Below are positions 7,903-22,853 of a stretch of 22,853 nucleotides of DNA, in pieces. This DNA is from a virus: positions 1 through 22,853 of the IMG/VR virus record IMGVR_UViG_3300047378_000033; one strand, written 5' to 3'. Position numbers and translations under genes: made by a program. The notes beneath the pieces are model-generated. The model was not told the DNA's origin. It saw only the letters and a list, made by a program, of their open reading frames with translations, and did not search any database. The stretch's first letter is position 1. The number at the start of each line of letters is the position of its first letter.

Positions 7903-7926
7903 AGGGGCCAAGCGGCCCCTTTTTTT
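7903..7926. terminator. Rho-independent terminator between convergent operons
   Basis: A perfect 7-bp GC-rich stem, AGGGGCC (7903-7909) and GGCCCCT (7914-7920), with loop AAGC, followed by six T on the + strand. It ends the replication operon. On the - strand the hairpin lies just past the stop of the 1007-aa gene and is followed by a weaker AAGTTTTAT tract, so it may act in both directions. The gap between the two operons is only 31 bp. Confidence 0.9.
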
Positions 7927-10900
7927 ATTTGTTTCTTTCAGCTTCTTGTCTTTCATTGTACTCTTCAGCACCGCCAAGGAACCAGTTGTAAACTAAGTTA
8001 CCTACAACAGGAACAGGTTTGACTAGCTTTTCTACGTTAGGGTCGTCCTCTAGAAGCTCTTCTCCTAAACTAAACGCACTGTCTATGATAGGAGTAGCAG
8101 GAGCTATGGTATTTATAACTGCGCCCTTCCAATCACCGTTAGACAGGTAGCGATCAGTGGTGTACCTATTGATACCATACACACTAAGAAGATTCCACAT
8201 CGCCCTGTCGGGTATGTCTTCAGCTTTAACTTCCCTACCTAATACTAGGTCTTTAGCGTACTGAGTCCCTGTGTTAGCCGTGGATAAGTAAGCCGCCAGT
8301 AGTGCTGCGTTCTTAACTGCTTCCTTCTTATTACCTTTAGCGTACTCTTGTACGACATTCCTACGCACTACGTCAATCTGTTTAAGAGTAAAAGACTTAA
8401 GCATGTAAAGTATACGATGATTAGGATTGTTCAGATAAGCCTGAGGAAACTCACTCAAAGTCACGGGCTGAACATCTGACAACTCATTGAACAAGAAGTA
8501 CTTAACTGTGTCAGTCATGTTCCCTTCTTCAAGGTCTTTAATCAAGGCTTGAGTCTCGTCTCCGTAGGTAGACCCTATCTTCTTTTTAAACTTACTTAAG
8601 TCTTTCTTCACCATCTTCTGGGCGTTCTTATAAGCAGCATTGATAAAGGTTTCTTTACCTAGTCGGTCTAATTTTTTAAAGCCTGAACCTCTCATCACTT
8701 TTTCTAGCATCTTAGAAGTTCCTTTTAAACTTCCCTCAGCTAGTTCTTTAGAGATTTCATCTAGTCCTATATCTATTAGCTCAATGTTTTTAGTTTTGAA
8801 TAAACTAGCTAGTGTATTCCGAAGACCGTTAAGAGCGCCTGAAGTACCTAGATCACCTAGCTGAGTAATCGCAGAGACAGGGTTAGCGATAGTACCCATG
8901 TACCCTAAGTCCCTGATGGTAGCGTTCAACGCTCCCGGAGATTGTTCGCCTCCTACGAAACGACTCTTAAGCATCTCAAGCATATCAGCTTCTTGTTCTG
9001 GACGAATACGTCCTTGGTTTATAGCGTCTTCAACGTAGTTACCTATCGACTTGTCAGCGTCTAACATCCCTTCTTTGTTAAAGGCTCCAAACTGACCCAT
9101 GAACTTTCTCTTTTCAATATCGTTCACAGCCCTACGTAAGTAGATAGCTAATGATTCTTCAGGAGAAGCGTAGTACTTCATCTGATCGTCACTTAAAGTT
9201 AGCTTACGCTGACGAACAAAACCCGGCTGACCTTTTTTAATACCAAAGGTATGACCTCTCATCAGCATGTCAATTACTTCTGCGTTTTCTTCTGCCGTTA
9301 GTTTCTCAGCAGAGATACCTTTTTTAGCAGCGTATCTATTCTTCGCCGCGCCTATCAAACCTTTCTGCTGTACATTTAAACTTTTTTGTAGACCTTCTAA
9401 ATCTTTAACAAGACGGGGGAAGTAGTTATCAACCATCTTGAAGGAATGCCCTGAAGCTTTTAAATCTTTACCTATCTGTTTTAACATAGGCACAATCTTA
9501 TCGTCAAACTCTGTAGACAGCTCACGGCCCATCAGCGCCCTAGCAGCGTCGAAGTCTTCATTATATAACAGCCGTGCAATGTTGTTCTTGACAGGAGCAT
9601 TAAGCTGAGAGAAACCCTTAACCCAGTTTTCAGCTTTACCAAGTGCTTGAGACGTATTCCTATGTGAGTCAAACTCAAATCTACGTAGGCGACCAAAGGT
9701 CTGCTCATCTATAGCCTTGATACGGGTACTGAGTACGCCTAGAATCTTATCAACCTTGCTGTTAGTATACCGGCCTACAGCACTATCATTGACAACTACA
9801 TCATCTGCTTGCTTCTGTGCTACCTTTGCTGGAGAGATGTTTAGTTTAGCGCCTATGCGTGTTTGTGCTGCCTTAAGTTTATTAAGGTCTATACCCGCTT
9901 CCTGTAAAATCTCTTTTCCTTTTAACGGATCAGCCCCTCGAGCTAGAGCTTTGTCCAACTCTATCTGAGCTTTTCTTACTAGCTTCTTAGCACCTCTGTC
10001 TCCTAATGCTTTAGCGCCACCTATAAAAGCACCACTAAGTGCACCGCCTGCTGCTGCGGATATGCCTGCCTTAAGAGGGTCTATCTCTCCAGCTTCTGAG
10101 TATACGTAGTCGTCAGCAATGCTACCGAAGCCTGCAATAGCTGTACCTAAAGCAATACCACCTTTGACTGAAGCAGCCGCAGGTACTAAGTTAATAGGAT
10201 CAACCACTGCTTTAGATATAGCGCCTGCTAAAGCTCCCTTAGATTCAGGCTGATAGTCAAACATAGGGCCTGACATTTTCATCAAGGCTCTTTCGTTTCT
10301 TCTTTTAATAGCCAAACGTCTTTCGTTAAACGGCAGCTTGCTGATGTCTTCTTTAAACTCTTCCTCAACAGTAGTTCCTGAGGGCATTGTTCCCATGGCT
10401 ACAGGACTGTATCCGTAAGGAGTTGTGTATCCTTTGGCCCATGTAGGTACAGGATTAATAGCATCTAAAAAATTAAGAGCGTTAGCGATATAGCTAGGGT
10501 TCTTTTGAAACTCATATAAAAACTGTCTTGTTTCGTTTTCTGCGCCTCTTGATAGAAACTCACGCTTACCCTCTTTATTAATAATCAAGTCACCAGCTAC
10601 TGCGTCTAATCGTTGTAAAGTAGCAGAGTTGTCTATATCTTCCTGTGTTATAACCTGTTCAATATCTATGACATCATCTTCATCAGAAAAGATACGTACA
10701 AGTTTATTATCCTTTACACGATCTCCCGGCAATACCCCTAGCTTTTGAAGAGTAAAACTTCCTGCAATATCTTCAAGAGTGAGAGTCGTACCTAGCTCCG
10801 CTTCTCTAGCTTCTTGAGCAGCTCGCTCTGCATCTTTTTGTGCAGTTACTTCCGCAGCCACAGCTTCCCGTCTAGCTCTTCTTTGAGCCAGAGGATTAAC

Positions 10901-10948
10901 CTCGGTTTCTTCTTGCTGTACGTCTAAAGCTGCTGTCATGTCTACCAT
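7925..10948 (-). CDS. Large putative internal virion / DNA ejection protein
   Basis: A 1007-residue protein, the last gene of the late operon. The N-terminus is charged and helical (residues 20-52). Next come two copies of an EDIxxSxTLQxL...GD...NK...FxS motif at about 58-88 and 102-133. Two hydrophobic, glycine-rich stretches at about 247-278 and 294-316 could enter a membrane. The remainder is long, mostly charged and helical. No lysozyme or transglycosylase motif is recognised. Size, position after tail genes, and amphipathic or hydrophobic helices fit the internal core or ejection proteins of podoviruses (role of T7 gp15/gp16), but this is inferred. The ATG at 10948 follows the previous stop by 2 nt, with AGG about 9 nt upstream. 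Confidence 0.6.
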   Translation of the reverse strand: MVDMTAALDVQQEETEVNPLAQRRARREAVAAEVTAQKDAERAAQEAREAELGTTLTLEDIAGSFTLQKLGVLPGDRVKDNKLVRIFSDEDDVIDIEQVITQEDIDNSATLQRLDAVAGDLIINKEGKREFLSRGAENETRQFLYEFQKNPSYIANALNFLDAINPVPTWAKGYTTPYGYSPVAMGTMPSGTTVEEEFKEDISKLPFNERRLAIKRRNERALMKMSGPMFDYQPESKGALAGAISKAVVDPINLVPAAASVKGGIALGTAIAGFGSIADDYVYSEAGEIDPLKAGISAAAGGALSGAFIGGAKALGDRGAKKLVRKAQIELDKALARGADPLKGKEILQEAGIDLNKLKAAQTRIGAKLNISPAKVAQKQADDVVVNDSAVGRYTNSKVDKILGVLSTRIKAIDEQTFGRLRRFEFDSHRNTSQALGKAENWVKGFSQLNAPVKNNIARLLYNEDFDAARALMGRELSTEFDDKIVPMLKQIGKDLKASGHSFKMVDNYFPRLVKDLEGLQKSLNVQQKGLIGAAKNRYAAKKGISAEKLTAEENAEVIDMLMRGHTFGIKKGQPGFVRQRKLTLSDDQMKYYASPEESLAIYLRRAVNDIEKRKFMGQFGAFNKEGMLDADKSIGNYVEDAINQGRIRPEQEADMLEMLKSRFVGGEQSPGALNATIRDLGYMGTIANPVSAITQLGDLGTSGALNGLRNTLASLFKTKNIELIDIGLDEISKELAEGSLKGTSKMLEKVMRGSGFKKLDRLGKETFINAAYKNAQKMVKKDLSKFKKKIGSTYGDETQALIKDLEEGNMTDTVKYFLFNELSDVQPVTLSEFPQAYLNNPNHRILYMLKSFTLKQIDVVRRNVVQEYAKGNKKEAVKNAALLAAYLSTANTGTQYAKDLVLGREVKAEDIPDRAMWNLLSVYGINRYTTDRYLSNGDWKGAVINTIAPATPIIDSAFSLGEELLEDDPNVEKLVKPVPVVGNLVYNWFLGGAEEYNERQEAERNK
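10550..10786 (-). repeat. Duplicated ~31-residue motif in the 1007-aa protein
   Basis: Residues 58-88 and 102-133 align at an offset of 43-44. Shared positions are ED-I, S, TLQ-L, GD, NK and F-S (for example DIAGSFTLQKL against DIDNSATLQRL). This is protein-level duplication; the DNA copies have diverged. Confidence 0.7.
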
Positions 10949-10950
10949 GC

Positions 10951-12006
10951 TTATTTACCTATATCTGTATAAGCGTCATCATCTTGAGGTTCTACTTGTT
11001 TTTGTATTGGTCTGCCTCTACTGTCTAACTTTTTCTGATCGCCATTGTCGTCCGTCCCTAAATTAAGTGCGCCCATCACTTCAATAGCTTTAATTAGCGC
11101 CTTATCAAGAGCTAGTTGTTCTCTTATTGTCAGCTCTTTTGCTTTTAAGAAAATAGCACTTCTGGTTTTGTCGGAGATATCATCAAACCCGGGTAAAGAT
11201 TTACCAGCGCCAAGCCATCCATCTTTAAGCTCTGGTGGTAGGAGGGATTGGATTTGTTCTGTTGTAAAGATACCTTCATAAGCCTCTGTTTCATCTGATG
11301 TTAAAGGTTTAACTACAGCCGTTGAAGTTTTATAAAGCATATTTTCTGCTGTGTCTAAAGACATACCAGCTTGAATGTACCTTGCTAACTCAGGTCTTCC
11401 TCTATCAATTGCTTCTTTTGCGTACAGTTCTCGGAGACTTGCTTGTTGAGCCAGTAGTTTATTTTCATCGCTTAGAGCTTTTGCTGCTGCTGCTGAGGCT
11501 CTTTCTTCGCCTGCTGCGGATATCGCAAATCTTGCTTTAGAAAGTGCTAACTGTTCTCGTTGTATCTCATCTTGTCGTTTTTGCCTTTCTTTATTATCAA
11601 GCCTATCAATCTTACCAAACTCATAAGCTTCTTGCGCCCTTATCTCTGCCGAAACTGCTCTTGCTTCTCGGGCTTTAGCTCGCGCCTCTTCAACTTCTGC
11701 TTGTTTAATCGCTTGTATCTTAGCAGCCGTTTGTGCCGCGCCTGCCAAGTCTCCGCTTATTTGTTGAATCTTAGCTAACTTTGCTAGGTCTTCTACCTTA
11801 GTAAGGTCTAGCTGACCCATAGTCTGAGCTACTGTTTCTTCATACGAAGGCGCTCCACCACGGGTTAAAGCTCCTATAGCTTGTCCCATACCTGCTGTAG
11901 TCTGTGCGCCAAACTGTCCAGCAAAGCCAGCAGTACCGGGCATAGCCTGTACAGGAGCTGGGCCACCTACACCTGTCAACATCCTTGCAATATCTGTTCT
12001 AGCCAT
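10951..12006 (-). CDS. Helical/coiled-coil putative internal virion protein
   Basis: A 351-residue protein with Ala/Gly-rich N-terminus (residues 10-50) and a long Ala/Glu/Lys/Arg/Gln-rich helical region (about 80-215) with heptad-like composition. A mixed C-terminal part follows and the end is acidic (QDDDAYTDIGK). No enzymatic motif is seen. Its place between two other large late proteins and before the 1007-aa protein suggests an internal core or ejection component. An upstream in-frame TTG at 12024 exists, but it would make the GGAGGAGG at 12022-12015 part of the coding sequence. That Shine-Dalgarno lies 8 nt before the ATG at 12006, so I start there, one base after the previous stop. Confidence 0.6.
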   Translation of the reverse strand: MARTDIARMLTGVGGPAPVQAMPGTAGFAGQFGAQTTAGMGQAIGALTRGGAPSYEETVAQTMGQLDLTKVEDLAKLAKIQQISGDLAGAAQTAAKIQAIKQAEVEEARAKAREARAVSAEIRAQEAYEFGKIDRLDNKERQKRQDEIQREQLALSKARFAISAAGEERASAAAAKALSDENKLLAQQASLRELYAKEAIDRGRPELARYIQAGMSLDTAENMLYKTSTAVVKPLTSDETEAYEGIFTTEQIQSLLPPELKDGWLGAGKSLPGFDDISDKTRSAIFLKAKELTIREQLALDKALIKAIEVMGALNLGTDDNGDQKKLDSRGRPIQKQVEPQDDDAYTDIGK

Positions 12007-12007
12007 C

Positions 12008-13240
12008 TTAACCACCTCCTCCAAATATTCTACTAAATAACCCGCCCACAGCGCCTGCTGCTTGCTGCCTTAGAGCTGCTTCTGCCATGTCTTTTAACGA
12101 ACCTGTAGGCATAGCCGCCACTGTAGCCTGCTGTTGAGGAGTAGCTGGAGTGCCTAAAGCAGCACCTAACAATCCTTGCTGCTGTTGTAGACGTAACTGA
12201 TTAGCTAACTGCTCAGACTGTATCCTCGACTCTAAACCGCCTAGCTGTAATTGCCCTGCAATCTGTTGACCAGTCCTACGACCAACATCAGCAAAGCCAG
12301 CAGGAGTAGCACTAGCCTGTAGCATAGCAAGAGCTTGTTGCTGCGGCTGGTAGCCAGCAGTCATTAGACCTGTAGCACCTGCTAGAGCTTGCCGCTGCTC
12401 TGATAAGGCTTGCTGCCTAGCACCTACATTAGCTCGTGCCATAGCTTCCTGACGAGCAGTCTCTTGCGCTAGTAGCTCAGGAGATGCGCCGCCATAAGCA
12501 GCAGAGGACAGGCCTAGACGGCCTTGTGACAGCATACGCTCTTCTAGTGCTAGACGCTGACGCTCCTCTTCAGGACGCTGTGTAGCCCGTATCTGCTCAT
12601 ATATAGCAGCTTGTTGTTCAGTAGGGTCTTGACCTACCTGACCAAATAATCCCTGTGCCTGACCCATTAGTTGCGCTTGTAGAGCTTGTTGCTCTGGAGA
12701 CAGGTCAATACCAAAACCACCTTCAGCAGTAGTAGAAACACCACCTAATCCACCAGTAACGGTGTAGGGTCTAAACTGTGTAGCCTCGCGCCCTTCTTCT
12801 GCTAGTAAACCTAACTGCTCTTGAGTTTCTCTGCCTAGCTGTTGAACATCTTGTATGTTTTCACGACCTAAGTAATATTGACCAGCACCTCTGAGCAAGT
12901 TCTGAATCATGTTACTACCGCCAGCGGCTTGGCCAGTCTGCGGAGAACTAAGCATGGTTTGTGTCTGTTGCGTTGTTTGTTGAGTAGAGGGTGTAAGTGT
13001 TGGCTGATAATCTAAACCAAACAAACTAGCCATTGTGTTGTTAGCTGACGCTAGATCAAACGAAGGGAAAGCAGAAGAGCCTATATCGTACAAGCTAGGT
13101 ACAGACAAGCTAGACTCTATTTGCTGTGCCATTGTAGGAGGAACATAGCCAGTAATAGGATTAGCAATAAAACTACCTGTATTAGAAGGCGCGAAAGGAT
13201 TATCATCAGGTGTGTAGTTCCCGTACATATCAATAGCCAT
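12008..13240 (-). CDS. Gln/Ala-rich putative internal virion protein
   Basis: A 410-residue protein with unusual composition. The N-terminal 90 residues are Pro/Ser/Thr rich. A Gln-rich stretch follows around 84-95, then a helical Gln/Ala/Glu/Leu-rich body (about 125-395) containing RPYTVTGGLGG near 155-165. The C-terminus is Gly-rich (GGLFSRIFGGGG). Such Q/A-rich proteins occupy the inner virion or ejection slot in many podoviruses, so I infer a structural role. No catalytic motif is seen. The ATG at 13240 overlaps the preceding stop (TAATG) behind GGAGGG. A glycine/hydrophobic tail could be membrane-active. Confidence 0.55.
   Translation of the reverse strand: MAIDMYGNYTPDDNPFAPSNTGSFIANPITGYVPPTMAQQIESSLSVPSLYDIGSSAFPSFDLASANNTMASLFGLDYQPTLTPSTQQTTQQTQTMLSSPQTGQAAGGSNMIQNLLRGAGQYYLGRENIQDVQQLGRETQEQLGLLAEEGREATQFRPYTVTGGLGGVSTTAEGGFGIDLSPEQQALQAQLMGQAQGLFGQVGQDPTEQQAAIYEQIRATQRPEEERQRLALEERMLSQGRLGLSSAAYGGASPELLAQETARQEAMARANVGARQQALSEQRQALAGATGLMTAGYQPQQQALAMLQASATPAGFADVGRRTGQQIAGQLQLGGLESRIQSEQLANQLRLQQQQGLLGAALGTPATPQQQATVAAMPTGSLKDMAEAALRQQAAGAVGGLFSRIFGGGG
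12015..12022 (-). promoter_or_regulatory. Strong ribosome-binding site deciding the start at 12006
   Basis: GGAGGAGG on the - strand, 8 nt before ATG 12006. It also encodes part of the C-terminal Gly-Gly-Gly-Gly of the upstream protein. Confidence 0.8.
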
Positions 13241-13473
13241 TAGTACGACCCTCCAGTAATTGTGTCAGCCGTTAGTGTGCCTGTCACGTTTACGGTAGCG
13301 GCTGTTACAGTACCAGTAAAAGTAGGAGCAGCAGTGTCAGCCTTGCTGTTTACCGCTGTTGCTATGTTAGTGTATTCTGTGTCGATTTCTGTACCACGTA
13401 CAATCTTATTGGCGTTACCAGAGGGCAAAGAATCCTTAGCCGCAAAATTAGTGGTCTTTGTATAGTTGGACAT
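13240..13473 (-). CDS. Short tail-fibre N-terminus-like protein, 77 aa
   Basis: The sequence begins MSNYTKTTNFAAKDSLPSG and continues with GTEIDTEYTNIATAVNSKAD, then a short Thr/Val beta-rich repeat (TGTVTAATVNVTGTLTADT). This resembles the opening of many marine phage tail-fibre or collar proteins, but the ORF stops after 77 residues. It may be a small fibre anchor, or the remains of a longer fibre whose distal part is now encoded elsewhere (the fibre genes lie beyond 18 kb). The start ATG follows GGGAGA and the stop overlaps the next gene. Confidence 0.6.
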   Translation of the reverse strand: MSNYTKTTNFAAKDSLPSGNANKIVRGTEIDTEYTNIATAVNSKADTAAPTFTGTVTAATVNVTGTLTADTITGGSY

Positions 13474-15015
13474 TTAGATAAGTCTCCCTAGTAAAGCATG
13501 TATGTCAATCTTTTGAATGGAAAATGGTACGTTGTCTATTTGTGCTTCAATACCAATGGTAACAATAGAGCCACTACCACCAGTGTTTACAGAAGGCGTG
13601 TTGATTAGAGCGTCTGCTCCTCCTGAGTATTCTGCTATTGCGTACTCTGCAACACCATATTCAGCAATAGCGTTAGACGCAGAAAATGTAAAGGCTTGCT
13701 TATTGTAGACATCTGTATAGTCATAGCCCCAGTTAAGCGTTATGTCAGTACCGTGTGCGCCTACAATAGTCAAGTTAAACTTCTTTAAGAACTTGAGATT
13801 AGAAGAGTTACCAAAGTCTGTGGGGTTACTAAAGTAACGTAGCTGATAGGTAGCTGTACCGTCTAAGTAGCCTGCGTACTTAACAATGCCTGTAGACTTG
13901 CCTATGTAAATTGTGTCGTCTTCTAAACGTGCAAAAGACAAAGGGTCTAGTCCTGTCCATGTAGTAGCTCTGTGCGCCCCAGATTGATCTAACGGGCCAC
14001 GCATATCAAAGCAGTACACAGTATTGGTAGAGGGTAGAGAAAGCAGGTAGAAGGCTTCGTCTGGGCTATATAAAGACTTAATAGGTAGCTGCTCTACATT
14101 AACCTTCTCCATCAGATCGTTACGGACATATTTACTAATGTCGCGCATAGGTAGAGACTTTTCTTGTATTACTCTACCAAAACTACGTAGCCCGGAGTCT
14201 GATAAGAAGATGACATCTGTACCTGTCTGCTGTACTGAGTCTCTAGCTATACATCCTACTCCTTCAATGGTATCCGCTAGAACCATGTTTGCAGGACTAG
14301 TAGCTCCTGAGTACACAACAATAGAACGCTTACCAAATATAATTAAGAAGTCATTGTGTGCCGTTAATGATACAATCTCGTCATAACCTGAAGGCCATAC
14401 TTTTTCTATATCTAAACTACCAGAAGTGCCTCCTGTCCAGTGATGTCCTTGGAGAAGATCGCTCCAGTAAACAGTGTGTTTGTTACCTACTACATCTGCT
14501 ACCCATAGCCTACCAAAAGCTGCTAAAGCCTCGTTAGCTGACGGCATTGTTCCTGTAGCGTGTGAATGAGAAGCCACAGGTTCCAGCACAAACGATCCTC
14601 CGTGATCTGTAGCTAGTAAAGGAGCGTGGCCACTTTGCACCATATACAAATGATCGTTAAAAGTTACACACTTCCAGTTATTTGCCGTTATCGTGTAGCT
14701 GCTGGGGGTAATATCAGTAAGAGTAGTAGTGCCTAAAAATATTTTATTATTACCAGCAGAGATTACACGCTTGTCGCCGCTTTTGTCTACAAACTCAAAA
14801 ACTGTTTCTATACCACGGCTGCTGCCTAACACAGAAGAACCGTTAGTAGTGACCTCTTCCCAGCCTTTACGCGCCCCTATACGGCCTAGCTTGTCAATAA
14901 CACAGTTGTCAGCAATAGCAGCAAACGACGGGTCTACGCCTATTGGTGAGTCCTGAGTATTGAGTCCAGCAAAGCCGGGAGCTGCAATAGTAATGTTCTG
15001 TAGCTGTTGAGCCAT
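13474..15015 (-). CDS. Tail nozzle-like (tail tubular protein B / stabilisation) protein
   Basis: A 513-residue beta-rich protein following the head-tail adaptor gene, the usual place of the podovirus tail nozzle (T7 gp12 or P22 gp10 role). The N-terminus APGFAGLNTQDSPIGVDP followed by AIADNCVIDKLGRIGARKGW is the type seen in marine podovirus tail proteins. The middle has repeated strand patterns (NDHLYMVQ, FGRLWVADV, NDFLIIFGKRSIVVYSG) consistent with a beta-propeller. The start overlaps the adaptor stop (TAATG) and has only a weak Shine-Dalgarno, implying translational coupling. The identity is by context and fold pattern. Confidence 0.65.
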   Translation of the reverse strand: MAQQLQNITIAAPGFAGLNTQDSPIGVDPSFAAIADNCVIDKLGRIGARKGWEEVTTNGSSVLGSSRGIETVFEFVDKSGDKRVISAGNNKIFLGTTTLTDITPSSYTITANNWKCVTFNDHLYMVQSGHAPLLATDHGGSFVLEPVASHSHATGTMPSANEALAAFGRLWVADVVGNKHTVYWSDLLQGHHWTGGTSGSLDIEKVWPSGYDEIVSLTAHNDFLIIFGKRSIVVYSGATSPANMVLADTIEGVGCIARDSVQQTGTDVIFLSDSGLRSFGRVIQEKSLPMRDISKYVRNDLMEKVNVEQLPIKSLYSPDEAFYLLSLPSTNTVYCFDMRGPLDQSGAHRATTWTGLDPLSFARLEDDTIYIGKSTGIVKYAGYLDGTATYQLRYFSNPTDFGNSSNLKFLKKFNLTIVGAHGTDITLNWGYDYTDVYNKQAFTFSASNAIAEYGVAEYAIAEYSGGADALINTPSVNTGGSGSIVTIGIEAQIDNVPFSIQKIDIHALLGRLI

Positions 15016-15647
15016 TATGAGTACCAGATAGTTTCTTCAGGATGTAATGCAGCGTCCATTGCTATAGCGTCTGCTAGTGAAGCATCAGCTAGTGCGAACA
15101 GTTCCGCTGCGCTAGTACCACCAGTCTCTCCTCTCTCTCTTGCTCCTAACGCTGTAGCCAGACGTATAACAGGGTTATAAGGCACGTTCAGTGGGTCTGT
15201 GTCGTTGGTAAAGTCTGTAGTACGTAACACCACATTAAACCGCAGTGTGTACGCAGCGTCAGGAATAGGGTATAGATCAACACCGTTTATACCGTTAATG
15301 CTGTAAAACTGAGTAGTACCTTTAGGAACACTAGGGAAGTCTAGGAAAGCGTTGTCAAACCACTGAGATGGCTTGTACTGCAAGAAGCAGTTTTGTGTGT
15401 CGTTGGTAGCATCTAGTATCTTAATAGTGTTGTCAGCACCTGTAAGGACGTAGTTAAACACGTTAGCCTGTGTGTCTACTGTCAGTGTGTTACGTAGTCC
15501 TGTCCAGTCCCAAGCGTTCTCTACTGTACGTTTAGCGTCATTAACATACTCACCTATTAGCTTGGAGTAGCTGTTCTCGCCTACGGTAGAGACTTCGTTT
15601 TCACGTAGCCTGACCAGCACCTTGTTAACCAGTTGTAAGTATGTCAT
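15015..15647 (-). CDS. Head-to-tail adaptor-like protein (T7 gp11 / P22 gp4 type)
   Basis: A 210-residue protein. The opening MTYLQLVNKVLVRLRENEV, the YVNDAKRTVENAWDW helix and the later YPIPD...RFNVVLRT strand pattern are typical of podovirus adaptors or tail tubular protein A, which join the portal to the tail. The ATG at 15647 has AAGGAG about 11 nt upstream and directly follows the 597-aa gene. The nozzle-like gene follows at once, which is the standard adaptor-nozzle pair. Confidence 0.75.
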   Translation of the reverse strand: MTYLQLVNKVLVRLRENEVSTVGENSYSKLIGEYVNDAKRTVENAWDWTGLRNTLTVDTQANVFNYVLTGADNTIKILDATNDTQNCFLQYKPSQWFDNAFLDFPSVPKGTTQFYSINGINGVDLYPIPDAAYTLRFNVVLRTTDFTNDTDPLNVPYNPVIRLATALGARERGETGGTSAAELFALADASLADAIAMDAALHPEETIWYS

Positions 15648-17440
15648 TAGAGTGAAACTCCTTGTTTTTGGAATAACTCTTGTAAAAGCTCTTCTTGTGT
15701 TAGTTGTTGTAGTATGTTTAGTTCTAAACCGTTGTCATAAGTAAATTCAGACAAAGGAGACTGTATGTCTTCATAAACATAAGGCATTGTTTGTACGTCT
15801 CCAAACTCTAACGTACTAAAAGGCACTAGCTCTTGAGTGTCTTCTACCTTTGTTTTAAATTTAAACAACTCGTCAGCAAACAACGAGTCAGTAGTTCTAG
15901 TGGATGACATAGGAACAGCGCCAGAGGCTGTAGCCATCATTCCGGACATTGTTAAATCAACACTGGGTAAATCAACACTGGGTAAATCAATACGAGGTAA
16001 ATCAACACTAGGTAAATCAATATCTGGTAACGCGTCTCTAACGGCTGTGTCTAAAGCAGATAGAGCATCGCCTACAGGCCGTATAACAGCGTCATCTACG
16101 TCTTTAGCTACTTCTCGTACAGGTTGTATAATAGCATCATCTACAACGCTGCCTCCCGCTCTCACAACGTCTTCGACAGCACTGCCTGTTGTTTCAGCTA
16201 CTTCTTTAATTGGTTGTAAAATTTGATCATCTAAGTTACGACCTAGCTCTTTTACTGTCTCTGAATCCCCTACATCACCTAGAGCGTTTTCTACAAAACG
16301 AACAAAAGCTGTACCAACTTCCCCAAGAGGACGTACGAGATCCCTAACAACATCTTCAACAACCCTTAAGTCTATGTTAGTTTCGGGCAAATCAATAGAG
16401 CCTAACGTGCCGCCCTCTCTGATGTATTTACCTAAGCCCTGCGCCAGTGCCTCATCTAACTCCGCACCTCCAGCTACAGCAGATACAACCTGACCTAAAC
16501 CTTCTTGAAAATCATCATATTGTATTCCTGCGCCTTCAATGGTTGCTTGGTCTAACCCTACTGAGTCTAAACCTCTGTTAATCAGTGGTTGACCTACAAG
16601 AGCTAGAGCAGCTCCTTCGACATCACCAGCGGCTGCTACATTTAGGGCAGTCTGTGTTTGAGCATAAGTAGTGCCAAATAAACCCCTACCTGCGTTAGGA
16701 ACTGGAGGGCCTGCTTGTCCTGAAGGTAAGTCTGTTACGCTAGGCGGCTCAATAACTCCAGCAATGTTAAGTCCTTGCATCAAGCTAGTAGCTATCTCTA
16801 CAGGCGATACGTCCATACCTGCTGCTGCTTTAGCTCCTGTTAAAGCTAATGTTCCTCCGGGCACAAGGTTTGCAAATAATCCAATACGAGGGTCGCTTAA
16901 AACATCTTCAAAGAAATCATAATCAGGAGTCTCTATAAATTTACGAGTATACTCACCTATTCCTCCTTCTCCTCCTGAAACATCTTCCCAAGTACCCTCT
17001 AAGTAATTGCCAAACCTGTCAAACAGTTCTGGGTGAAACTCTTGGGAGCGTTCACTTTGAGGAATAGCACTAGCTCCACTAGGTAAATTAATGTAAAGCC
17101 TGTTTCCTTCCTCGTCTTCTTGATATAAAGGAATGCCCTGCGCTTGCAGTTCTTCGTGAAAAGGAGTATATACTAAATCTTCAAACCCTTGTTCGCTTCT
17201 TCCTGTGGTTAAGTTACCAAAGTTAGGATCGTTAGGGTTCATTGCTAACCGACCTGTTTGTTCTACAGTCGGCCCCGCTGTTTGGTAAAGAGTATCCCAA
17301 AAAGACTGAATGTTAAAAGGTTCTTGACTTTCAACATTATTCTCTGCAACATCTGAAGGGGCAAACGCATCCTGTGCTGTGTCAAAAGGACTAGCAAAAG
17401 GAGTTTTGTCTTTCTTTCCAAAGTCAGTTATTACAGTCAT
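15647..17440 (-). CDS. Unknown virion-associated protein with internal repeats, 597 aa
   Basis: I do not recognise the family. The N-terminal third is acidic and aromatic without a signal peptide. The middle (about 200-330) is Gly/Ala rich. Residues about 385-470 hold helical repeats of the type DDxIxQPxxEVA (ILQPIKEVAE, IIQPVREVAK, VIRPVGDAL). A pentapeptide tract of PSVDL/PRIDL/PDIDL units follows near 473-497, then a less regular acidic C-terminus. It sits between the 3TM holin and the adaptor gene, so a structural or ejection role is likely. Stop and start are coupled (TAATG) to the holin gene behind GAGAG. The repeats could be flexible linkers or length-variable spacers. Confidence 0.5.
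   Translation of the reverse strand: MTVITDFGKKDKTPFASPFDTAQDAFAPSDVAENNVESQEPFNIQSFWDTLYQTAGPTVEQTGRLAMNPNDPNFGNLTTGRSEQGFEDLVYTPFHEELQAQGIPLYQEDEEGNRLYINLPSGASAIPQSERSQEFHPELFDRFGNYLEGTWEDVSGGEGGIGEYTRKFIETPDYDFFEDVLSDPRIGLFANLVPGGTLALTGAKAAAGMDVSPVEIATSLMQGLNIAGVIEPPSVTDLPSGQAGPPVPNAGRGLFGTTYAQTQTALNVAAAGDVEGAALALVGQPLINRGLDSVGLDQATIEGAGIQYDDFQEGLGQVVSAVAGGAELDEALAQGLGKYIREGGTLGSIDLPETNIDLRVVEDVVRDLVRPLGEVGTAFVRFVENALGDVGDSETVKELGRNLDDQILQPIKEVAETTGSAVEDVVRAGGSVVDDAIIQPVREVAKDVDDAVIRPVGDALSALDTAVRDALPDIDLPSVDLPRIDLPSVDLPSVDLTMSGMMATASGAVPMSSTRTTDSLFADELFKFKTKVEDTQELVPFSTLEFGDVQTMPYVYEDIQSPLSEFTYDNGLELNILQQLTQEELLQELFQKQGVSL
15951..16025 (-). repeat. Five tandem 15-bp repeats
   Basis: Five back-to-back 15-bp units on the + strand, of form GGTAAATCAACACTG with changes at a few positions. 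On the coding strand they give five pentapeptides: PDIDL, PSVDL, PRIDL, PSVDL, PSVDL. The unit is in frame, so copy-number change would keep the reading frame. Confidence 0.95.
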
Positions 17441-17823
17441 TACCGCTCTCTCTGTACGCCTTTAGCTTTTTCTACCGTTCGCATTGCACCTAGACCTAAC
17501 ATACCCATAAGCACAGTAGTGAGCAGGGAGCTGTCAACAGGAGGAACAGTAAACCATATACCTAAGATGGGTGATAAAATAGTAGAGTACATCAACGCGA
17601 AACCACAGATCCATCCTATAGCGGGTCTCCACCCAGCTACAAACATGTTCTTATGAGCCGCCTCTACCTTATTGACTTCAAGCTGCTGCTTGGCATTCTC
17701 ATAGGCCGCTTTAGCAGCCATTGTAGCTACTTCGTGTGCTAGTTGATTCTTGGCATCTTTGTCTTCAATAAACTTATCTAACAAACCAGTGACTGGGCCA
17801 ATCAAACTATTTAATATACTCAT
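17440..17823 (-). CDS. Holin, GTA_holin_3TM family-like
   Basis: A 127-residue membrane protein. An amphipathic helical N-terminus (about 10-58) is followed by AGWRPAIGWICGFALMYS and TILSPILGIWF (about 63-92), which can form one or two membrane helices, then LLTTVLMGMLGLGAM (about 100-114) and a basic tail. The AGWRP...G motif and final GAMRTVEK are typical of the 3TM holin family, which permeabilises the inner membrane at lysis. The ATG at 17823 has no Shine-Dalgarno and lies 3 nt downstream of a TATAAT box, so its translation mode is odd (see findings). It follows another holin-like gene. Confidence 0.8.
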   Translation of the reverse strand: MSILNSLIGPVTGLLDKFIEDKDAKNQLAHEVATMAAKAAYENAKQQLEVNKVEAAHKNMFVAGWRPAIGWICGFALMYSTILSPILGIWFTVPPVDSSLLTTVLMGMLGLGAMRTVEKAKGVQRER

Positions 17824-17825
17824 AT

Positions 17826-17854
17826 ATTATACACTATTTTTAGTCAAAAGTCAA
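17826..17854 (-). promoter_or_regulatory. Near-consensus sigma70-type promoter between the two holin genes
   Basis: On the - strand TTGACT (17854-17849), a spacer of exactly 17 nt, and TATAAT (17831-17826). A second TTGACT overlaps at 17847-17842. It fills the 32-bp gap between the 55-aa and 127-aa genes, the longest gap in the late operon. The predicted start point is near 17819, which is inside the first codons of the 127-aa gene. It would serve the 597-aa gene and everything downstream. Confidence 0.65.
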
Positions 17855-17855
17855 G

Positions 17856-18023
17856 CTATTCTTTGTTACGTAGTTTCTGTACAGTGTCAGTTTCCCAGAT
17901 GCGGATACCTAACCATACTATAGTAAACAAAGAAGCAGTGGGTGGTAGCCATGCAGCCAAGGTCATAAGAGCTGTAGAAGCTGCTGCTACGTCAACGAGG
18001 TCTTTACCAGTATCAAGAGCCAT
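17856..18023 (-). CDS. Small holin-like membrane protein, 55 aa
   Basis: Two hydrophobic stretches, VAAASTALMTLAAWLPP (about 12-28) and ASLFTIVWLGIRIW (about 30-43), are followed by a charged tail (TDTVQKLRNKE). Size and layout fit small phage holins of the T7 gp17.5 type. Upstream in-frame TTG at 18041 exists, but its codons contain the Shine-Dalgarno (GCAGG) that lies about 8 nt before ATG 18023; I therefore use the ATG. It overlaps the preceding gene by 11 nt. Its partner, a different holin type, lies just downstream; one may act as antiholin. Confidence 0.65.
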   Translation of the reverse strand: MALDTGKDLVDVAAASTALMTLAAWLPPTASLFTIVWLGIRIWETDTVQKLRNKE

Positions 18024-18231
18024 AGGACAAACCTGCTGCAATAGCTGCGTTAAGCGGAGCCATGTCTTCAGTTGTCCAGAAGTCTTTACCTACCATTAGC
18101 TGTAGATGTTGTACGTTACGCTCTACACAGTTAGCAGGTTCATAGTAACCAGAGTCATCAGCAACAATAGCGTTGATTAGGTTTACGCTGTCTAAAGCAT
18201 AAGCGTAGTGTTGTGCGGGAGTAGTAGACAT
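18013..18231 (-). CDS. Small protein of unknown function, 72 aa
   Basis: The protein has no membrane segment. It contains an acidic/aromatic middle (DDSGYYEPANCVERNVQHLQ) and KDFWTTEDMAPLNAAI near the end. Similar small ORFs near the tail and lysis genes seem familiar from marine phages, but I can give no function. The ATG overlaps the stop of the S74 gene (TAATG) with GGAG upstream; its own stop overlaps the small holin gene by 11 nt, suggesting coupling to lysis-gene expression. Confidence 0.6.
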   Translation of the reverse strand: MSTTPAQHYAYALDSVNLINAIVADDSGYYEPANCVERNVQHLQLMVGKDFWTTEDMAPLNAAIAAGLSYGS

Positions 18232-19148
18232 TAGTTATTCTCCAGTTCTTCTACACGAGCAGTTAGCTCTTGGATAGCCTTAACCAGTATGGGTATTAAA
18301 TTACCTGCGGTAGCTTCTAGCTTATCTGGGTTAGAGTCAAGTACAAGATTAAGTACGTCTTTGTTATCTCCAGCAGCTTCAAGTAACTCCTGTGCAACAA
18401 ACCCTTGTTCTACTGTACCGTCTTTAATATTACCGTCACGGCTTTCCCATGTAAACTGACGAGGTTGTAGAGTATTAATAAAGTCTAAACCATAAGGTGT
18501 GTCAATAATGTCAGTTTTATCTCTAGCGTCTGACAGTGAAGATATGCTTTGTACATTACAACGCAAAGAAGCTATAGTAGAACCACCTAATGTAAACTCG
18601 TTACTAACCGTTGAAGAAGAAGCGTAAGCTAAAATACCAACACAAGTATTGCCTTGACCTGTAGTTATGTTAGCTCCTGCACTGTCCCCTAAACAAGTAT
18701 TGCTTAATCCTGTAGTTATGTTAGTACCTGCTAAATAACCTATACCAGTATTAAAGTTACCAGTAGTTAAAGAAAACAAAGACTCTGCACCTAAAGCGGT
18801 ACAAGCTACAGGATTAGTAGCTGTAGCTAAAGCATTAAAACCAACGGCTGTTATGTTATTGCCATTAGATGAGCCGCTTATATTTTTACCCGCTGTTGCT
18901 CCTATAAGCGTACAGGCTGTTTGAGCGGAAGTAAGGTCTTCACCAGCAGTAGCGCCTAATGTTACATTATTAGTGCCTGTAGAGTTGTTGGAAGCTAAGT
19001 CTGCACCTAAAGCCACAATAGCGTTGCTGTTGTTTTTTGTGTATAGCTTTTTGTCTGTGACGTTTACCGCCAGTTCACCCTGTACTAAGTCACTAGCAGA
19101 GGGAGCAGCGCCAGCGGTACTAGAGTTCTTAGTTATAATCTTAGTCAT
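18231..19148 (-). CDS. Tail appendage protein with S74 intramolecular chaperone
   Basis: A 305-residue protein. The N-terminus (ASDLVQGELAVNVTDKKLY) is the type seen at the head of many phage fibre proteins. Residues about 50-180 form a beta-roll-like region with 17-residue repeats. The C-terminal third is a peptidase S74/endosialidase chaperone: SSLSDARDKTDI, FINTLQPRQFTW, QGFVAQEL, then a coiled coil (LVKAIQELTARVEELENN). Ser206 and Lys211 match the five-residue spacing of the endosialidase Ser911-Lys916 dyad, so cleavage just before Ser206 would release a chaperone of about 100 residues after trimerisation. GGAGG precedes the ATG. It is probably a receptor-binding or fibre component. Confidence 0.85.
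   Translation of the reverse strand: MTKIITKNSSTAGAAPSASDLVQGELAVNVTDKKLYTKNNSNAIVALGADLASNNSTGTNNVTLGATAGEDLTSAQTACTLIGATAGKNISGSSNGNNITAVGFNALATATNPVACTALGAESLFSLTTGNFNTGIGYLAGTNITTGLSNTCLGDSAGANITTGQGNTCVGILAYASSSTVSNEFTLGGSTIASLRCNVQSISSLSDARDKTDIIDTPYGLDFINTLQPRQFTWESRDGNIKDGTVEQGFVAQELLEAAGDNKDVLNLVLDSNPDKLEATAGNLIPILVKAIQELTARVEELENN
18618..18770 (-). repeat. Three 17-residue (51-bp) repeats in the S74 protein
   Basis: Units at residues 127-143, 144-160 and 161-177 share the pattern xTTGxxNTxxGxxA. Two of them keep near-identical DNA at exact 51-bp spacing (for example GTAGTTATGTTAG on the + strand at 18661 and 18712). This resembles the left-handed beta-roll repeats of YadA-head adhesins. 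Confidence 0.75.
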
Positions 19149-19603
19149 TACTGACCTCCGTTAATAAATATGTATAATGCAATGCCTACAGTAATCAGTA
19201 AAGCTGTGCCTAAGATTGTCTTGACTGCTTCAGTTACTTTAGTTTGTTTACGTAGTTTAGCTAATCTTTCTTTCTCTAGCTTGTGCTTGTGTTCCATCAG
19301 AGACTTGTGTTGTATGTTTAACATGTCACGCCACACATCTCTAGGGGTTATCTTCTTCAGTTCCTTCTCACGCTCTCTAATAGCGTTCTTAGCCCATGCA
19401 AGCTCTAAGGCTTCCTCCTGTGTCAGTACGTGATCGCCCTGCTTAGAAGCCTCCTCAATCGTTTCTACGGCTACCTTGCTTTCCGTAAGACTTGTAAAAA
19501 TACCAGCAAGGTCAGACAGGTGCGACCCTGACTCTTTGACAGTCTTAATGCCTGCGTTGAGAGTCTTGAGTACACCTACAACTGCTGAGATTTCTGCAAG
19601 CAT
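19148..19603 (-). CDS. Coiled-coil protein with C-terminal membrane anchor, 151 aa
   Basis: A soluble, helical, highly charged region (about 60-125: ALELAWAKNAIREREKELKK, HKHKLEKERLAKLRKQ) ends in a single hydrophobic segment, ILGTALLITVGIALYIFI (about 130-147), with three residues beyond it. No signal peptide or lipobox is seen. It lies between tail-chaperone and S74 genes in the tail/lysis region. An inner-membrane accessory to lysis or ejection is possible, but the anchor is at the C-terminus, unlike i-spanins. Function unknown. The ATG at 19603 lies just after the previous stop, with AGG about 7-8 nt upstream. Confidence 0.6.
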   Translation of the reverse strand: MLAEISAVVGVLKTLNAGIKTVKESGSHLSDLAGIFTSLTESKVAVETIEEASKQGDHVLTQEEALELAWAKNAIREREKELKKITPRDVWRDMLNIQHKSLMEHKHKLEKERLAKLRKQTKVTEAVKTILGTALLITVGIALYIFINGGQ

Positions 19604-19604
19604 T

Positions 19605-19892
19605 TTAGCTACCTAAAGTTGGTCTAGTGTCTGGGAAGTCTGCTGTGCTAGGCCAATCACGCAAAGCTGTACGGTACGTCATATAGGCAGCGTGTTGCGG
19701 GTGGTCGGTTAGAGGTACTACCCAATCAGAAGCGCCTAGTTCCATATCACGCCACAGACGGGCTTCTTCTTCTGCCGTAGGCTCTGGTGTTGTCCACTCT
19801 TCGTAGTGTTCAAAGTTTGCTTCTACAAAAGCAACGTCTGCTTTAATTGTGTTTACAATGTTGCCGTCAGCATCTTTAATGTTGTACTTCAT
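19605..19892 (-). CDS. Phage tail assembly chaperone-like protein (copy 2), 95 aa
   Basis: The C-terminal half reads EEARLWRDMELGASDWV...YRTALRDWPSTADFPDTRP, the pattern of the Phage_tail_APC family (WRD-EL--TDW ... YR-ALRD-P ... FP), small proteins that help fibres fold or assemble. The N-terminus (YNIKDADGNIVNTI) differs from its paralogue. AAGGAG precedes the ATG at 19892. It follows the Gly-rich appendage gene in the same operon, as fibre chaperones usually follow their fibre. Confidence 0.75.
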   Translation of the reverse strand: MKYNIKDADGNIVNTIKADVAFVEANFEHYEEWTTPEPTAEEEARLWRDMELGASDWVVPLTDHPQHAAYMTYRTALRDWPSTADFPDTRPTLGS

Positions 19893-19902
19893 TTTATTCT
19901 CC

Positions 19903-20661
19903 TTACGATACTGTCAGATATTGAATAATTACAATGCCGTCACCGCCATGGCCGCCAATGCGAAGATAACTAGCTGAACCGTTCCAAGCTCCTCCACCGC
20001 CAGCACCAATACCACCTGAACCACCACTAACAAGCCTGTTATTATCGTTCAAGTAAGCCTGACCACCTCCCGACAACAAGCCTCCGCTTTCAGGGACAAA
20101 CCCACCATTACCGCCTCTGCCGCCTATAAGCTGACCAAGACCAAGAGGCTCAAAACCGTCAACGCCTGCGTCTGAACTTGCGCCTGAACCCATTACGGCA
20201 TTACCACTGCCGCTAGAATGTACGCTTACAGCACCCCCACCGAAAAAGTAATTACCATTCCCTCCTTGACCGCCTGTGTAGTTGACATCACCACCTGAAG
20301 CAGTCCCTGGGCTTGTAGCTGATGTTCCTGCTCCGTTTGCTGTCAGAGTGCTAGAGCCGTCAGTTGCTGAACTGTTACCGCCTGCTACGAGTCCTTGGTT
20401 AGATCCAGTAGAGGTGCCGCCCGCGCCAACTACAATTGTCCAGTTTGTCCCTGTAGATAAAGTTACGTCTTTTCGGCAATAGCCACCTGCCGCTCCACTA
20501 CTTATGCCACTGTTGTTAGAACCACCACTAGCGCCTCCACCAATGACATGAATACGTGCTGTGCCGTTAAACGGGGGTGTCCACGTTTGTGACGTAGTAA
20601 GTACGACAGTTTCAAGCGTAGCTCCGCCACCGCCACCTATAAAGTCTGTAAAGTTACTCAT
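19903..20661 (-). CDS. Glycine-rich tail appendage / adhesin-like protein
   Basis: About 252 residues, very rich in Gly with Ser/Asn/Ala. A TWTPPFNGTARIHVIGGG segment near 25-45 begins a glycine-rich domain whose turns (GGGASGG, GGQGGNGN, GGRGGNGG, GGSGGIGAGGGG) recall the polyglycine-II sandwich of receptor-binding adhesins such as those of T-even phages. It ends HGGDGIVIIQYLTVS. It probably contributes to host recognition. ATG 20661 overlaps the previous stop (ATGA); an in-frame ATG at 20673 gives four more residues, and neither has a clear Shine-Dalgarno beyond GGATGGG before 20661. Confidence 0.7.
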   Translation of the reverse strand: MSNFTDFIGGGGGATLETVVLTTSQTWTPPFNGTARIHVIGGGASGGSNNSGISSGAAGGYCRKDVTLSTGTNWTIVVGAGGTSTGSNQGLVAGGNSSATDGSSTLTANGAGTSATSPGTASGGDVNYTGGQGGNGNYFFGGGAVSVHSSGSGNAVMGSGASSDAGVDGFEPLGLGQLIGGRGGNGGFVPESGGLLSGGGQAYLNDNNRLVSGGSGGIGAGGGGAWNGSASYLRIGGHGGDGIVIIQYLTVS

Positions 20662-20981
20662 GCCATTACCCATCCGCGTGTAGCGTCTGCAAAAATAAAT
20701 TGAATTGAAAGATACTCTTTGTCCAGCGTCATGTCTGTACCGCTAGACATGATGTTGCTGCCGTTACGTCCTACCACTGTATTAGTAAAGTTACCTACAG
20801 TAATAAGCACCCGCTGGCCAGCAGAAGGTGAAGCAGGTAATGTAATAGTCTGCCCAGCCGCGCTGACGTATACATGCGTATTGACTGTAGCTGTAATAGA
20901 GGACGCTGTGCTAATTGTGGTAATGCCTACGGTTATAGGGTCAGAGGCAATGACACCTGCTTTTACTTTTGTTAAAGCCAT
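20658..20981 (-). CDS. Short tail-fibre C-terminal-domain protein, 107 aa
   Basis: The N-terminus MALTKVKAGVIASDPI is of a kind seen at fibre segments. Residues 45-107 (ITLPASPSAGQRVLITVG, VGRNGSNIMSS, FIFADATRGWVMA) match the C-terminal domain of the larger tail fibre at 21966-22853 (LTLPASPSAGDVVTVKNVG, VGRNGSNINSV, LVYVDSTIGWTTI). It is likely a stand-alone copy of a fibre tip domain. The ATG overlaps the upstream chaperone stop (TAATG) behind AGAGGTGA. Confidence 0.7.
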   Translation of the reverse strand: MALTKVKAGVIASDPITVGITTISTASSITATVNTHVYVSAAGQTITLPASPSAGQRVLITVGNFTNTVVGRNGSNIMSSGTDMTLDKEYLSIQFIFADATRGWVMA

Positions 20982-21262
20982 TAGCTCACCTCTGGTCTTG
21001 TGTCAGGGAAGTCAGAAGTTGACGGCCAGTCGCGTAGTGCTTGGCGGTAAGTTAGAATGGCCTCAGCGTTTGGATAGTCGGATACTGTGGCTGCTATGTC
21101 TGTGCGAGTTAGTTCGCCATCGCGCCATTTACGCGCATCTTCCTCTATCTCAGCGGTAGTTGGCTCAACAGCCTCATTGACCATCTTATCTTCATACCAA
21201 CCATCATACTGAAACCTAGTCAGGCCGTTGTCTAATACTGTTTCACTTATTGGGGTAGTCAT
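20981..21262 (-). CDS. Phage tail assembly chaperone-like protein (copy 1), 93 aa
   Basis: A paralogue of the 95-aa protein: EEDARKWRDGELTRTD and YRQALRDWPSTSDFPDTRP align with it almost residue for residue, while residues 1-35 differ. Phage_tail_APC-like. AAGGAG precedes the ATG at 21262. It follows the 226-aa appendage gene, so each appendage group carries its own chaperone copy. Confidence 0.75.
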   Translation of the reverse strand: MTTPISETVLDNGLTRFQYDGWYEDKMVNEAVEPTTAEIEEDARKWRDGELTRTDIAATVSDYPNAEAILTYRQALRDWPSTSDFPDTRPEVS

Positions 21263-21272
21263 TATTTTCTCC

Positions 21273-21953
21273 TTAGCTATCTAGCCGAACTAAGCAACCT
21301 GCTTGTCTTGAATCAGCATGTGTAGTCCCTACGCTTGACGCAACAGTAATGGTTAAGCTGTTTTCAAAACGCACACAGGCTGCGGGATTAACAAGAGGCG
21401 CGTTGACATTTGGCCACAACTGTTTAGGAAAGTAACCACCACCCGCTCCACTCCCTGAATAATCAACAGTCATGTTATCTGGGTTTCCTACGGGTGCGTT
21501 ACTTTGGCCAGCGTCCATTGCGGATTGAGGAGGAAGCGCAAACAATGTACTATTAGTACTTATAGTTTGATCTAAAGTTACTAGTGAAGGTAACCCTAAG
21601 TAACCTCTGGAGTAGTAAGACCCTGCCGCTGGAGCTAAAGTTACTGTTGTTGCTACTCCATCTACAGTAACTATAAAAGTAGTAACTAAATTAGCAGTGC
21701 CGTTTGGCGCAGCTCCTCCAAAAGCATATATTAAAGAACCCCCTTTACCGCTAACGCTGTAGATAGTCCTGTGTGTGTTCGCTACAGAATTAGTGTCTGT
21801 AAATGCAGTTAAAGTATTAGTGTTATAATAATAGGTACCATAAACTCTAAAACCGTTATTTACCCAAACACCTACACTTTGAAAATCAGCATTAAATCTT
21901 GGCATCTTTGCTGGGTCGCGATTTAAATCGTCTCTACTTCCTATTACTGCCAT
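21273..21953 (-). CDS. Putative tail appendage protein, 226 aa
   Basis: A beta-rich protein (Thr/Val/Ser/Gly/Asn) with no helix-rich part and no membrane segment. Features include a basic/acidic N-terminus (GSRDDLNRDPAKMPRFN), a Tyr-rich patch (GFRVYGTYYYNTNT) and a short Gly cluster (SGSGAGGGYFPKQLWP). No enzyme motif is recognised. It lies between the large tail fibre and a tail-assembly chaperone, so it is probably a fibre-tip or receptor-binding component. AGAGG precedes the ATG. This is a context call. Confidence 0.55.
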   Translation of the reverse strand: MAVIGSRDDLNRDPAKMPRFNADFQSVGVWVNNGFRVYGTYYYNTNTLTAFTDTNSVANTHRTIYSVSGKGGSLIYAFGGAAPNGTANLVTTFIVTVDGVATTVTLAPAAGSYYSRGYLGLPSLVTLDQTISTNSTLFALPPQSAMDAGQSNAPVGNPDNMTVDYSGSGAGGGYFPKQLWPNVNAPLVNPAACVRFENSLTITVASSVGTTHADSRQAGCLVRLDS

Positions 21954-21965
21954 GTCTATAACCTC

Positions 21966-22853
21966 TTAAATAGTTGTCCAGCCAATCGTGCTATCTACAT
22001 AGACCAACTGTGCTGCGTTATTCTGTGGCAGTTGAGCATCTCCAGCTACCGAATTAATATTTGAGCCGTTACGACCTACAGTAATTAATGCTGCTCCCAC
22101 GTTCTTAACAGTAACAACATCACCTGCTGATGGACTAGCTGGGAGTGTAAGAGTAAACGCAGTAGTAGCATGATTGCCTACAATTTGATCGCCAGACAAC
22201 ATAGTGTAGTTGGCTGTCTTAACTAGCCAGTCGTTATACAAGCCGCCAACTGTGGCAAAAGACAAAGTGCCTGAACCGTTAGTTATAAGTGCTTGTCCTG
22301 TGCTGCCGTCAGTGACAGCAAGTTTTGCAATAGTTACGGCACCATCTACAATCTTTGCCGTAGTGACTGTGTTGTCACTGGGTGTACCTACGTCAGTAAC
22401 TGCAATAGCCGCTACCATAATCTCTATAGCTGCTCCGTTGGCAGGAGCTTCAGAGAAAGTAACTACAGCGGGAGTTGCGCTAGATACTGCATAGGTTGAT
22501 TTGTTTTGATACACGCCATCTACATACACCAGCGTGTTGTTTTCTATTGCTGCGCCAGAGAGTGAGAAGGTTACGTCACTACCATCACCAGTGAAGCTGT
22601 TAAGCAGGAGGTCAGCAGCACCGCCACCAATCTCTCCCCACTCTGTGGAGTAGCCTTCAAACTTACCTTCAGTGGTGTTGTAGCGGAACTGACCAGCTAC
22701 GCCTGTAGGACGCTGGGCTGTAGTACCTGCTGACATCTTGACAGCGGTAGTACCTGTGACAGTGACTGAGTTAAAGCTAGGATCAGTACCAATAGAAGCT
22801 GCACTAGCGGCAGCAGCAGTAGCTGAGTTGGCTGCGTTGGTAGCTGAGGTAGA
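21966..22853 (-). CDS. Tail fibre protein, C-terminal part (gene runs off the right edge)
   Basis: The reading frame stays open from the stop at 21966 to the window edge, at least 295 codons. An ATG at 22736 is internal: the 39 codons upstream read SATAAAASAASIGTDPSFNS and on, the Ala/Ser repeat style of T7 gp17-like fibres, and there is no Shine-Dalgarno. The order of the visible part is Ala/Ser-rich stalk, KMSAGTTAQRPTGVAGQFRY segment (a common fibre motif), beta-rich domain with FTGDGSDVTFSLS and NTLVYVDGVYQ, then a linker with TAKIVDGAVTIAKLA, and a C-terminal domain shared with the 107-aa protein. It is likely the main fibre contacting the host. The N-terminal virion-binding domain is outside the window. 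Confidence 0.85.
   Translation of the reverse strand, partial: STSATNAANSATAAAASAASIGTDPSFNSVTVTGTTAVKMSAGTTAQRPTGVAGQFRYNTTEGKFEGYSTEWGEIGGGAADLLLNSFTGDGSDVTFSLSGAAIENNTLVYVDGVYQNKSTYAVSSATPAVVTFSEAPANGAAIEIMVAAIAVTDVGTPSDNTVTTAKIVDGAVTIAKLAVTDGSTGQALITNGSGTLSFATVGGLYNDWLVKTANYTMLSGDQIVGNHATTAFTLTLPASPSAGDVVTVKNVGAALITVGRNGSNINSVAGDAQLPQNNAAQLVYVDSTIGWTTI

Follow-up and report, generated by a model that had tools for sequence, protein, structure and literature searches.

Results and Discussion

What does a sigma70-type promoter do when its -10 box ends two nucleotides before the start codon of the next gene? The question is raised by a holin locus in a stretch of viral DNA of 22,853 nt, which we refer to as the window. 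The window is a 22.9-kb fragment, and its DNA polymerase shares about 51% identity with the enzymes of the pelagiphages HTVC103P and HTVC104P. Known isolates near it gave short DNA matches only, in three phage records, and the nearest isolate holins are those of CRP-810 and C72C1. The window's group probably consists of marine phages related to the HTVC103P-type pelagiphages.

The promoter and its surroundings in the window

The promoter comprises the following elements, given in the order of transcription:

17849..17854, minus strand: -35 box TTGACT, read in the sequence; 32 of the 78 holin loci, counting the window, retain TTGAC
17832..17848, minus strand: spacer of 17 nt, better conserved in the 3' half than in the 5' half among 20 representatives
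17826..17831, minus strand: -10 box TATAAT, read in the sequence
17819..17820, minus strand: predicted RNA start at the sixth and seventh bases past the -10 box, by the E. coli rule of PMC5730371

On the minus strand the order is AAAGAATAGC TTGACT TTTGACTAAAAATAGTG TATAAT AT ATG AGT, where the ATG occupies 17823-17821. Under the usual definition of sigma70-type hexamers lying 16-18 nt apart, TTGACT-N17-TATAAT matches at 11 of 12 positions and is the sole 11/12 site of the window, so that an earlier note on this DNA was right to single it out as the best promoter of this type. It fills a 32-nt gap, the only one of more than 12 nt among the 17 gene junctions of the minus-strand operon. Match quality alone is not beyond chance, since sites of at least 11/12 were present in 90 of 300 dinucleotide-shuffled windows (0.30) with spacers of 16-18 nt, and in 28 of 300 (0.093) with a spacer of 17 nt only; the evidence for the promoter is therefore its conservation. 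A scan of positions 10000-22853 gave 15 promoter-like sites, compared with 17.5 expected.

The genes around the promoter are as follows:

17856..18023, minus strand: upstream small membrane-type ORF of 55 aa with two hydrophobic stretches; it ends with a TAG stop immediately ahead of the -35 box
17440..17823, minus strand: GTA_holin_3TM holin of 127 aa (profile and PHROGs matches), ATG 2 nt past the -10 box, without Shine-Dalgarno
15647..17440, minus strand: ORF of 597 aa, the first whose start falls within the promoter's predicted RNA; start and holin stop overlap as TAATG, Shine-Dalgarno energy -5.0
7925..15647, minus strand: other downstream late genes (SU10-adaptor-like, head-closure/structural-like and others), from the ORF list and profile matches

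The product of 17440-17823 is a predicted holin of the GTA_holin_3TM family (PF11351; E 4e-17, 63.2 bits against a curated cut-off of 24.8), and the ORF also matches the PHROGs holin family phrog_3427. The 55-aa ORF had no Pfam or PHROGs family match, even with E up to 1, and could be called a holin by inference only. Hence the earlier description of the promoter as lying between two holin genes holds for the downstream gene, while the upstream one offers two hydrophobic stretches and no family match. The duplex energy at the holin start, +0.1 kcal/mol, makes its Shine-Dalgarno the weakest of 24 window starts scored (one of which, 18020, was placed 3 nt off the true ATG at 18023), and agrees with the reported lack of such a site. 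A search for an RNA hairpin across the holin start found none (shuffle z 0.46).

Several further features of this region were recorded. The C-terminal third of the 597-aa protein contains repeated DLPSVDLP units, and the gene at this place is highly variable in length among relatives. At 7904-7927, between two convergent gene blocks, GGGGCC-AAGC-GGCCCC is followed by a T run and looks by eye like a strong terminator. Two short proteins encoded at 19605-19892 and 20981-21262 have a common C-terminal motif, RDWPST-DFPDTRP, and one of them matches Phage_tail_APC, which suggests a duplicated tail chaperone-like gene.

Conservation at holin loci

A search of viral contigs for holin relatives returned 80 sequences. 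Of these, 77 have at least 90 nt upstream and three (L001, L044, L058) were left out because their contigs begin at or within the gene; together with the window this gives 78 loci. The arrangement TTGAC-N18-TATAAT directly before the ATG is found in 32 of the 78 loci, window included, so the proposed check that relatives might lack the -35 and -10 boxes came out in the promoter's favour. These 32 bearers form 23, 20, 13 and 9 groups at 98, 95, 90 and 85% ORF identity, respectively. The -10 box and the ATG are 2 nt apart in 30 bearers and 1 nt apart in two (L039, L049), which have lost one nucleotide between them and yet retain both. Because bearers were picked by their boxes, box identity among them is given by construction, and the fair control is provided by the 46 non-bearers, in which no 10/12 site occurs within 90 nt and no decayed copies were seen. 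The Shine-Dalgarno is absent before the holin in nearly all bearers, with a median of 0.1 kcal/mol, against -4.5 in non-bearers.

A second route, through the 597-aa gene, gave 21 loci, of which ten have a holin match and eight of these at least 40 nt upstream; the promoter is present in all eight, at least one of which (L237) lies on the same contig as a locus of the first search (L021). The upstream ORF stops 45 nt before the -35 box in L004 and L005, 10-11 or 4 nt before it in others, within it (TTGA read as TGA) in L006, L012, L043, L045 and L046, and 8-14 nt into the promoter in most other bearers, an overall range of -45 to +14 relative to the -35 box; the survey gave no result for L020 and two candidate stops for some loci. 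The boxes thus stay in place while the upstream stop codon wanders, which indicates that the DNA itself is conserved, independently of the coding frame. Among 20 representatives, the pairwise difference per site is 0.59 in upstream DNA, 0.46 in the 5' half of the spacer and 0.13 in its 3' half. As judged from these comparisons, the boxes are a genuine, conserved host-type (sigma70) phage promoter, its activity being presumed. Another locus (L090, 6569-6602) shows this promoter and overlap ahead of an ORF with holin-like sequence over its first 31 residues only (35% identity); by its sequence, the N-terminus and promoter have been retained there and the remainder replaced or diverged.

Predicted RNA start and use of the holin ATG

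According to PMC5730371, the E. coli polymerase most often starts 7 bp after the -10 box, usually within 6-9 bp, and seldom begins further upstream than 1 bp before base 7. With a start about 7 nt after the -10 box, the holin ATG lies upstream of the predicted RNA start; the rule is that of the E. coli polymerase, and the host of the window phage, and hence the polymerase, may differ. By this rule, the predicted start at 17819 lies beyond the ATG at 17823, just as the earlier note had placed it.

For calibration we used 988 kb of other viral loci with 119 TTGAC[AT]-N17-TATAAT sites that had not been chosen by the search pattern. The distance to the first long ORF peaks at 6-8 nt (12 sites, leaderless type) and at 22-28 nt (29 sites, leadered); 35 sites have no long ORF, and two have a distance of 0, both of them before the T5-like gene described in the next section. 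The 12 sites with an ATG 6-8 nt past TATAAT, among loci L082-L201, look like a second, leaderless-like class of phage promoter. Leaderless genes have their start codon at or beside the RNA start, about 6 nt after the -10 box, and the calibration peak is likewise at 6; at the holin the distance is 2 nt. In 20 record pieces of promoter-bearing relatives, the other TTGAC-TATAAT sites have leaders of 31-196 nt: 85-89 nt before the homologue of the window gene at 34-399, 138-196 nt before a gene of 111-134 aa and 31-69 nt before a gene of 79-88 aa. Among the promoters of those relatives, the start codon stands against the -10 box at the holin site only.

Is the excluded ATG a real start? For the 20 representatives, pN/pS was 0.26 in codons 2-8, 0.205 in codons 2-34 and 0.12-0.13 beyond. 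MSIL is retained with different codons in L030/L031, and several promoter-less relatives start with similar N-termini. The holin N-terminus is therefore under protein-level selection. This argues for an ATG in actual use, presumably by way of read-through RNA. We also considered, and rejected, added constraint at the DNA level on the opening holin codons, as the identical-codon fraction of codons 2-8 (0.688) falls within the range of 0.38-0.74 observed elsewhere; being unexceptional, these codons contain nothing past the -10 box that marks an RNA start.

A second case in T5-like phages

A scan with the pattern TTGAC-N18-TATAATATATG yielded at least 126 sites in at least 120 loci. Among the matches listed, at least seven sites precede a holin relative (four on contigs already seen) and at least 30 precede a protein of a second family, here family 2 (128-139 aa if complete), as recognized by its N-terminus; most other matches listed have tiny, probably spurious ORFs downstream. 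One listed match, at 1794-1827 of L143, has a 119-aa ORF (N-terminus MDNVNKPKHY) that starts 2 nt past TTGAC-N18-TATAAT and which we take to be DUF3310-like; it is possibly a third family with the layout.

The family-2 protein is phrog_4258, a PHROG with no assigned function, and corresponds to '123', the gene that precedes the SSB gene in T5-like phages; the gene that follows it matches single-strand DNA-binding protein families. The family-2 gene is unrelated to the holin, and the same layout is an independent case there. A search with this protein gave 80 loci, 78 of them readable. The layout occurs in 72 of the 78, all with TTGAC and a 17-nt spacer, and the start codon, which alternates between ATG and GTG, lies 2 nt past TATAAT in 56 and 1 nt past it in 16; the remaining six have TATACT. 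In two subclades, 20 of the 78 loci altogether, a Shine-Dalgarno is found inside the promoter spacer, directly ahead of TATAAT and about 10-20 nt before a GTG start: AAGGAAG in 11 loci (L272-L282, duplex energy -6.3) and AAGGAG in 9 (L291-L299, -8.2). Lying within the spacer, it would be absent from that promoter's RNA and carried by read-through RNA only.

Among T5-like isolates 901 records matched, and 10 isolates were compared, with distances counted by hand. From the -10 box to the start we obtained 29 nt in T5, 27 in Shivani and 70E38.1, 25 in DU_PP_V, 19 in Brizo, 11 in PG07, 4 in Boggle, 2 in Kamaji and 1 in Eos; of the ten, Akh-2 has no such promoter at the homologous locus. One homologous locus thus contains both ordinary leaders and clipped starts, at distances of 1-29 nt. 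At the T5 locus (AY692264, 1495-1573; L327), the annotation of T5p123 falls 78 nt short of the homologous start, and the T5 codon homologous to the family-2 start is ATT, behind GAGGAG and an annotated putative promoter.

Interpretation of the promoter at the holin start

Taking the sequence comparisons together, we think it probable that this promoter recharges the downstream operon while cutting off the holin start. A sigma70-type promoter, belonging to a small set that these phages carry, would sit inside the late operon, and the local RNA would begin just past the holin ATG. The late operon would also be read from upstream promoters, giving a longer RNA that carries the holin start; from this read-through RNA the holin would be translated without a Shine-Dalgarno, perhaps by ribosomes that re-initiate once they have finished the upstream ORF. 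To this the local promoter would add RNA for the late genes from 17440 down, with the holin start missing. Since the predicted start excludes the ATG and the ATG is selected as a start, the holin would come from read-through RNA and the promoter would serve the genes beyond; on this point the comparison of conserved boxes, predicted start and selected ATG favours what the earlier note had proposed. The RNA start, the activity, the read-through and any effect on lysis timing are what we infer, and a link of the promoter to lysis timing is plausible from the arrangement. Certain features weigh against start-clipping. The downstream gene has a modest Shine-Dalgarno (-2.9 to -5.0 in 31 loci scored), and in most loci its start and the holin stop overlap. 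Coupling to holin translation may therefore matter; if the gene needs such coupling, it would be poorly served by the clipped RNA. An untranslated stretch of about 380 nt would also invite termination, and drift with compaction could give the same picture.

That last possibility, in which a promoter for the downstream genes merely landed in the one small gap, both RNAs contribute and the closeness to the ATG has no regulatory meaning, seems rather unlikely to us: no other operon gap exceeds 12 nt and the T5-like isolates range from 1 to 29 nt, as they would under drift, but the 1-2 nt distance was held in 20 holin sequence groups while the Shine-Dalgarno was lost, and a distance of 0-2 nt recurs in marine members of the T5-like family. 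We regard as unlikely a leaderless holin mRNA, with the RNA beginning at the A of the ATG or just before and the promoter being the holin's own. Start codons within 1-2 nt of the -10 box in 32 holin and 72 T5-like loci, maintained through 1-nt indels, would suit it, as would the frequent ATG at 6-8 nt in other phage contigs (12 of 119 sites). However, transcription would have to begin 3 nt after the -10 box, and such early starts are rare in E. coli (PMC5730371); the calibration peak is at 6 and not at 2; and the Shine-Dalgarno upstream of the -10 box in two T5-like subclades would be useless on a leaderless RNA.

The other way out that the earlier note had offered, a later start, fares worse. 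Holins with two starts are known, lambda S being one, and an internal start on the short RNA could produce a short form besides the long one, for which codon 35, the first internal ATG, is a candidate, being ATG in 29 of 32 bearers. The codon is nevertheless CTA in 3 of 32 and is without a Shine-Dalgarno in the four loci inspected, so that an in-frame second start equipped with a ribosome site is not seen there; TTG codon 7 is TTA or TTT in other loci, and the selection on codons 2-34 (pN/pS 0.205) concerns just the part that the short form would lack. We consider this reading very unlikely. It is scarcely credible that the conserved element is a promoter-like operator or a packaging or recombination signal: the 3' half of the spacer (ATAGTG) is unusually conserved and ACTAAAAATAGT forms a short inverted repeat in some loci, but L049 and L015 alter the spacer and keep the boxes and the 17-nt spacing, and other operons of these phages are preceded by similar boxes at that same spacing.

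More tentatively, start-clipping might be a recurrent phage device in which a strong host-type promoter lies 0-2 nt before a start codon. On this reading, which is conceivable though less likely than not, the first gene would be read from upstream RNA only, at times by means of a Shine-Dalgarno in the spacer, and the promoter would recharge the genes beyond. Separate origins at the marine holin/late-gene junction and the T5-like 123/SSB junction are a possibility of the same tentative kind, as is a path from ordinary leader to clipped start, illustrated by the T5-like relatives. Should this be true, a strong promoter standing right in front of a gene would fail to drive it, automatic annotation and promoter-gene assignment would be wrong at such sites, and phages would have a cheap route to more late or SSB supply without more lysis or accessory protein.

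Comparison with known systems

This system is a variant arrangement of known parts. In a literature search we recognized nothing with the -10 box against the start codon, which does not prove its absence from the literature. Internal (sub-operon) promoters, in phage as in bacterial operons, add RNA for distal genes. The promoter in the window likewise lies inside an operon and would add distal-gene RNA; it differs in that its RNA start is predicted a few nucleotides past a start codon that is conserved, which would exclude the first gene almost exactly at its start. With leaderless genes the promoter-bearing holin loci have in common that neither a leader nor a Shine-Dalgarno fits between the -10 box and the start, whereas their spacing is 1-2 nt and not about 6, and the predicted RNA lacks their start codon. 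The closest parallel is the T5 promoter before 123/D11 (AY692264, annotated as 'putative promoter'), which is also of the sigma70 type and precedes a small gene, lying between a helicase gene and this small gene, which is followed by the SSB gene D11. Two T5 relatives, Eos and Kamaji, have 1-2 nt between TATAAT and the start codon, as at the window holin. T5 itself differs, with a 29-nt leader containing GAGGAG between the -10 box and the gene, and with a location in the replication-gene region instead of the lysis region.
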